A DNA stretch of 46,597 bases. It comes from Alcaligenaceae bacterium. GTDB lineage: Bacteria; Pseudomonadota; Gammaproteobacteria; Burkholderiales; Burkholderiaceae_B. This document shows, in pieces, positions 42,711-44,851 of this stretch. The notes below the pieces were generated by a model that saw nothing but the letters and a program-made list of their open reading frames with translations, searched no databases and was not told where the DNA came from. How positions within the stretch are numbered: position 1 is the first letter of the stretch; each line of letters starts with the position of its first letter. The DNA lies in assembly GCA_012735395.1 (NCBI GenBank), contig JAAYHN010000119.1, positions 1 through 46,597 of the forward strand, in the 5' to 3' direction. Both the position numbers and the translations under genes were made by a program.

Positions 42711-43199
42711 ATGATTGACCTCATTATTGCCGACCTGGACAATCCGGTTCATGCCTCTGCAATATTAACTGTCCTGAATGATTATGCTTCCGATCCGACA
42801 GGTGGCGGAGCGGAATTATCACCCTATGTACAGAAAAACCTCATTGCCTCCCTGAAAAAACGGGGCAATATCTATACCATTCTGGCTTTCAGGCATCAAC
42901 AGCCTGCCGGTATTGCGCTATGCATCTAAGGTTTCTCCACATTCGCCTACAAACCCTTGCTGAACATCCATGATTTTTCTGTGATGAAGCCTTACCGTGG
43001 ACAGGGTATTGGCAAACTGATGCTTGACCGGGTAAAACAGCTGTCCAAAAACCTGGGGTGCTGCAAAATTACCCTTGAAGTGCTGGAAGGCAATGCAATT
43101 GCCCGAAAACTCTACGAACATGAAGGCTTCCTGAATTATCAGCTTAACGCTGAAATGGGTAATGCCCTGTTCCTTCAATACCCCATGGAAACTGATTAA
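42711..43199 (+). pseudogene. GNAT-family N-acetyltransferase interrupted by an in-frame TAA (42927-42929)
   Basis: 42711..42929 and 42957..43199 are in the same frame; continuous reading ...GIALCI*GFSTFAYKPLLNIHDFSVMKPYRGQGIGKLMLDRV... with acetyl-CoA loop YRGQGIG. Confidence 0.8.
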
Positions 43200-43716: not shown

Positions 43717-43749
43717 TAACAACAAGCCCAAACCCGTTGCTCAATACAA

Positions 43750-43788
43750 AATGCCCGGTATCAACAATACGTGATACCGGGCATTTTT
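43750..43788. terminator. bidirectional Rho-independent terminator
   Basis: TGCCCGGTATCA (43752-43763) / TGATACCGGGCA (43772-43783) then TTTTT; A-tract on the other side. Confidence 0.85.
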
Positions 43789-43805: not shown

Positions 43806-44012
43806 TTACACCACCTCGTAGCCTGCTTCCTGTATGGCTGCCTTGACCTGATCTGCGCTGACCTGGCCGTTGGTGCTGACCTTGACCGATTTCTGTTCAA
43901 GGCTGACTTCCGCCTTTTCAACTCCCGCCAGCTCTTCTACCGCTTCCCTGACGTGCGCAACACATTTGCCGCAAGACATACCCTCTACATTAAATTGCAA
44001 TTCCGTTGCCAT
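43806..44012 (-). CDS. copZ: heavy-metal-associated (HMA) domain copper chaperone, CopZ-like
   Basis: 68 aa, FNVEGMSCGKCVAHVREAVEEL (MxCxxC). Confidence 0.88.
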   Translation of the reverse strand: MATELQFNVEGMSCGKCVAHVREAVEELAGVEKAEVSLEQKSVKVSTNGQVSADQVKAAIQEAGYEVV

Positions 44013-44053
44013 ATTTAGCTCCTTTCGATTAAGCGTTTTTTAAAGATAGCCCT

Positions 44054-44084
44054 ATCTTAAACCTTCCCATCATTGGAAAGTCAA
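44054..44084 (-). promoter_or_regulatory. CueR/MerR-family-type promoter with 19-bp spacer for the copZ-like gene
   Basis: On - strand TTGACT-TTCCAATGATGGGAAGGTT-TAAGAT; dyad ACTTTCC...GGAAGGT inside a 19-bp spacer. Confidence 0.8.
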
Positions 44085-44851
44085 GAACCCTGATAAAGCC
44101 GCGCAACCCGGTTTTCGTGCTGGCCATCCATTTCACCCGGCAAAACAATACTGCCATCCAGTGCCGTGGCACCACGATAACCAACCGCAAAGGCCCGGAA
44201 ACCCATACGGCCATAATGGGGGCTATAGTCGTAGGTATCATGGTGGTGCCCGTGAAATGCGGTATGCACCCCCAATTGCCGCGCCAGGGCATCAATTACC
44301 GGGAAGCCAAAGCGATTGCAGGAAGGTGCTTCGTGGGTAACCAGAATATCGGCCTTTTCCTGCATCAGGCCCTCGTACTCTGAAGGAAAAATCGTACTGC
44401 GATGACGCAGATTCACGCCATTACGCCAGGCGGCCCGGTGGCCCCCTGCCGCAATAAAATCATAAGGAGAATAATAATTCCAGCCTGCTTTGGCTGGGTC
44501 CCATATTTTCCCCCGGAAAACCCCGCCCAGGCCGGCAATACGCACCCCCGCCACCTCACACACCCGGCCACTTAAATTACGGTCTTTCAGGTGGGAGAGA
44601 AATAAATTGTCGTATTGTTCTTCGGTATCGGTATCATGATTGCCATGAATCCACCAGATTTCCGTCAAATCAAGAATATTGGCCAATTGTTCGTGAAATG
44701 GACGTGGCGTTTGTATATCTCCCAGAAACACAATAGCCTGCGGCCTGATTCGATTGACCACATGGAAACAATGATCAAAACCGCCGTGCGTGTCTCCGAA
44801 AAAAAGTATTTTTTTGCCTGCGTCCATAAGTTCTAATGGCCTGTATTTCAA
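44081..44851 (-). CDS. metallophosphoesterase family protein
   Basis: ILFFGDTHGGFDH, FLGDIQ, WIHGNHDTD, VTHEAP, FHGHHHDTYDY metallophosphoesterase motifs. Confidence 0.85.
   Translation of the reverse strand: MKYRPLELMDAGKKILFFGDTHGGFDHCFHVVNRIRPQAIVFLGDIQTPRPFHEQLANILDLTEIWWIHGNHDTDTEEQYDNLFLSHLKDRNLSGRVCEVAGVRIAGLGGVFRGKIWDPAKAGWNYYSPYDFIAAGGHRAAWRNGVNLRHRSTIFPSEYEGLMQEKADILVTHEAPSCNRFGFPVIDALARQLGVHTAFHGHHHDTYDYSPHYGRMGFRAFAVGYRGATALDGSIVLPGEMDGQHENRVARLYQGS

Follow-up and report, generated by a model that had tools for sequence, protein, structure and literature searches.

A probable CueR-type copper promoter upstream of a stand-alone copZ gene in an Advenella-like genome

The 46,597-nt contig JAAYHN010000119.1 of an Alcaligenaceae bacterium (assembly GCA_012735395.1; the whole stretch is called the window below) carries copZ, which encodes a small copper chaperone, directly behind a metallophosphoesterase (MPE) gene. 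The locus raises the question of how this copZ is controlled, as neither the copper ATPase gene copA nor the regulator gene cueR lies in the window, a statement of the first-pass annotation that was confirmed by searches. The source genome is Advenella-like, and the site upstream of copZ is assigned here to the CueR-type promoters with a probability of about 0.93.

The anatomy of the promoter can be read directly in the minus strand, as had been proposed at first pass: the boxes TTGACT (-35) and TAAGAT (-10) enclose 19 nt (TTCCAATGATGGGAAGGTT, 44078-44060), and the full palindrome recognized as the CueR box reads ACTTTCCAATGATGGGAAGGT at 44081-44061. Its arms agree in 13 of 14 bases with the CueR consensus ACCTTCC-N7-GGAAGGT, the left arm being ACTTTCC in this genome. 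In MerR-family promoters, a spacer of 19 bp leaves the -35 and -10 boxes out of register, and CueR-Cu(I) activates transcription by distorting the spacer. The overlong spacer had been described as diagnostic of MerR-family activation; spacer and palindrome together do identify the class, whereas for the spacer alone this word is too strong. The -10 box differs from that of the Escherichia coli copA promoter (PcopA), given at first pass as TAACCT.

The match is far above chance. Allowing up to 3 mismatches, the pattern TTGACCTTCCN7GGAAGGTTTA occurred once in the window and in none of 100 dinucleotide shuffles. A CueR profile trained on 20 sites located upstream of copA or divergent copZ, all from other genomes, gave the copZ site a score of 35.9 (training sites, 26-48); the second-best position in the window reached 8.0, the reverse reading of the same palindrome being excluded, and 2 Mb of random sequence from a first-order Markov model, read on both strands, gave no score above 16.8. 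Throughout the 2.65 Mb genome the copZ site was the sole match to the strict form ACYTTCC-N7-8-GGAAGGT, and the relaxed pattern with 3 mismatches retrieved two sites, the copZ site and C199:10737-10763, with 0 matches in the control.

This second site is placed directly upstream of copA on contig C199 (TTGACC-TTCCTATCATGGTAAGGAT-TACACT; profile score 43.6), and the gene is the only one in the genome for a Cu-type P1B ATPase. Together, copZ and copA would constitute a two-site copper regulon. A check suggested by the first-pass annotation, to locate copA and cueR elsewhere and compare their promoters, was thus successful for copA, which has a like promoter, but not for cueR, which was not found in the assembly. 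The copA gene is truncated after 531 codons by the end of C199, and its 3' half was not found anywhere else in the assembly. A CueR-family gene that scores above the 147-bit cut-off of the CueR model TIGR02044 was present, directly behind copA, in 9 of 9 other genomes of the genus, about 2 kb past the HMA domain of CopA on the same strand; the five congener CueR proteins that were read out all contain the copper signatures CXGX5C and SX2V (signatures as in PMC10187127). Given the truncation of copA at the contig end and the position of cueR behind copA in nine congeners, cueR is probably located in the assembly gap after C199 and not missing from the genome. The assembly holds three MerR-family genes (on contigs C200, C211, and C326), none of which reaches the TIGR02044 cut-off. 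Those on C211, after ihfA, and on C326, beside an acyl-CoA dehydrogenase gene, were set aside as not metal regulators by context.

The promoter before copZ is conserved in A. mandrilli, A. faeciporci, and A. alkanexedens, the three closest congeners, which also retain the gene order MPE-copZ. All three read TTGACA-19-TAAGAT with an invariant AAGGTTTAAGAT core, and their profile scores are 20.8, 33.2, and 32.0, respectively. The early proposal of a stand-alone CopZ behind a CueR-type promoter is therefore strengthened by the other genome match before copA, by the box kept in three congeners and by the CueR-family genes beside copA elsewhere in the genus; in addition, CopZ scores above the cut-off of the copper HMA model TIGR00003. 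Two observations weigh against this assignment: the three congeners have a degenerate left half-site (profile score 20.8 in A. mandrilli), and the assembly, which is 91% complete, yielded no cueR, so that the identity of the regulator is taken from relatives.

Another explanation would be that read-through from the MPE gene accounts for most copZ expression, the box being weak or a relict. Both genes are co-oriented with 69 nt between them, and relatives outside the clade have copZ close behind the MPE gene with no recognisable CueR box, as observed in six Advenella with larger genomes (4.3-4.9 Mb, including A. kashmirensis) and in Oligella, one Pelistega metagenome-assembled genome and unnamed Alcaligenaceae, the best CueR profile scores of these relatives being near or below 8. 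Predominant read-through is nevertheless unlikely, considering that the box persists in four species whose CopZ proteins are 65-67% identical and that the AAGGTTTAAGAT core is unchanged despite diverged DNA of altered length before the box.

These box-less pairs of larger-genome Advenella, Oligella, and other relatives, with copZ directly after the MPE gene, suggest that the association of MPE and copZ predates the copper promoter or is independent of it. Tentatively, and at somewhat less than even odds, the small-genome Advenella clade may have gained a CueR promoter within an older MPE-copZ pair, which would have placed a formerly constitutive or coupled copZ under copper control; loss of the box in the other lineages would be the alternative. 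In the present species the junction may then have shrunk so far that the stop codon joined the -35 box.

That the copZ site serves another metal sensor is even less probable. A candidate would be the CadR/PbrR-like regulator encoded on C200, which is the best TIGR02044 match within the assembly (104 bits, below the cut-off). This gene is, however, divergent from a gene for a Zn/Cd/Pb-type ATPase and has its own box, TTGACTCTGAAGTTGCTACAGGGTT, which scores -5.6 on the CueR profile vs 35.9 for the copZ site and 43.6 for the copA site. Moreover, the copZ site lacks a spacer palindrome of the CadR/PbrR kind, and the C200 box differs from it in sequence. The C200 pair had also been considered as a possible cueR-copA and was rejected on account of the protein score, under the CueR cut-off, and of the CadR/PbrR kind of its box. 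The locus itself (L008, C200 496-3321) comprises the MerR gene and the divergent P-type ATPase gene, whose product has a His-rich stretch, and a promoter of its own with a 19-20 bp spacer (TTGACTCTGAAGTTGCTACAGGGTTTCTAAT).

With regard to the stop codon of the MPE gene, the sequence bears out that the TGA at 44083-44081 forms bases 2-4 of the TTGACT box, while any significance of this overlap is not sustained by the three promoter-keeping congeners, where the MPE stop is TAA and lies 57, 93, and 107 bp upstream of -35. Functional coupling of MPE translation termination with copZ transcription is hardly credible. The overlap is genuine, and TGA is inherent to any TTGAC, but the congeners keep the promoter with a distant stop and no mechanism requires the overlap. 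Among the sequences compared, the overlap is particular to this genome and lends no support to a coupling mechanism; it is an incidental consequence of tight gene packing.

According to the CueR-type assignment, the copZ promoter would be kept inactive by CueR sitting on the palindrome within the overlong spacer of 19 bp. Upon binding of Cu(I) (or Ag(I)/Au(I)), CueR would bend and untwist the DNA, RNA polymerase could use the -35 and -10 boxes together, and transcription from the activated promoter would yield a short copZ mRNA with its end at the hairpin near 43750. In turn, CopZ would buffer cytosolic Cu(I) and pass it to CopA, with copA under the same promoter type elsewhere in the genome and cueR predicted directly after it in the C199 gap. 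For CueR and HmrR promoters, a spacer length of 19 bp and the signal ACCTTCCC-(5)-TGGAAGGT have been described (PMC1526738). In Haemophilus influenzae the copZA promoter has a box of similar layout, and its copper induction was lost on deletion of cueR, as evidenced by lacZ fusions (PMC10187127).

The features of the locus are collected in Table 1. The copZ start is found about 40 nt beyond the -10 box. The product exceeds the 62-bit cut-off of TIGR00003 (copper ion binding protein) and combines a single HMA domain with the MXCXXC motif (GMSCGKC); in the model scan, stricter CopZ equivalog models were not passed by this 68-aa protein. The hairpin between copZ and the osmB-like gene makes a copZ-only transcript of about 300 nt likely. 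It is a probable terminator, and it was absent from the list of a simple terminator scan. The MPE gene possibly starts at the ATG at 44827 (MDAGKKI...), as homologues align from residue 4 or 8 onward.

Table 1. Features of the copZ locus, in window coordinates
Feature	Position	Strand	Basis
CueR-type promoter (probable): -35 TTGACT (44084-44079), 19-bp spacer, -10 TAAGAT (44059-44054)	44054..44084	-	Sequence, rarity, profile score, congeners
CueR box ACTTTCC-AATGATG-GGAAGGT, imperfect palindrome within the spacer	44061..44081	-	Only strict match genome-wide
copZ, 68-aa single-domain HMA copper chaperone, metal site GMSCGKC	43806..44012	-	Pfam HMA 61.7 bits; TIGR00003 64.1 bits
MPE gene, upstream of copZ	44081..44851	-	Open reading frame; TGA stop 44083-44081 inside TTGACT
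Hairpin separating copZ from the convergent osmB-like gene, probable terminator	43748..43787	-	-29.2 kcal/mol, z -6.0

An inverted repeat, AAGATAG-GG-CTATCTT (44038-44058, minus strand), spans the -10 box and the likely transcription start of copZ; it was set aside, as it is not conserved in the three congeners. Elsewhere in the window, a gene for a GNAT-type acetyltransferase (42711-43199, plus strand) contains one in-frame stop, TAA at 42927-42929. The reading frame is open at this position in three congeners, which points to a pseudogene or a sequencing error.

A CueR-controlled copZ separate from copA is already known in other bacteria, and the present case is an ordinary further instance. 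Pseudomonas aeruginosa encodes stand-alone copZ genes under CueR, with two CopZ paralogues vs the one stand-alone HMA protein found here; its CueR and two CopZ chaperones were reportedly studied by Novoa-Aponte in 2019. Bordetella and the window genome fall into one GTDB family. The Bordetella pertussis copZ-prxgrx-gorB genes include, as here, a copZ under CueR-type control distant from copA (PMC7794356); there, copZ heads a peroxide-defence operon and has cueR divergent from it, whereas here copZ is apparently alone and cueR is not adjacent. Escherichia coli PcopA shares with the present site the TTGAC of the -35 box, the 19-bp spacer and the ACCTTCC-N7-GGAAGGT palindrome (PMC10187127, PMC1526738), from which the left arm here (ACTTTCC) is one base off; PcopA drives copA, in contrast to the separate copZ driven here. 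Haemophilus influenzae likewise has a CueR-type copZ promoter, for which activation by CueR was shown by lacZ fusions and cueR deletion (PMC10187127), although its copZ occurs in tandem copies in an operon with copA and not apart from it. Other members of the family have CueR boxes before copA, often with a second box facing the opposite way, sometimes towards copZ; at some loci (L117 and L119, for example) copZ and copA are divergent or adjacent with separate CueR boxes of the same design, unlike the Advenella copZ, which is found beside the MPE gene and away from copA. A literature search found no relevant paper on copper in Advenella. The current understanding of CueR is unaltered by this locus, which adds one more case of copZ and copA being located apart within a copper regulon. 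It also shows how far the call of a MerR-type promoter from raw sequence may be relied on, as the genome contains just two such sites and each precedes a copper gene. The comparison between Advenella clades could be used as a small case of regulon change.
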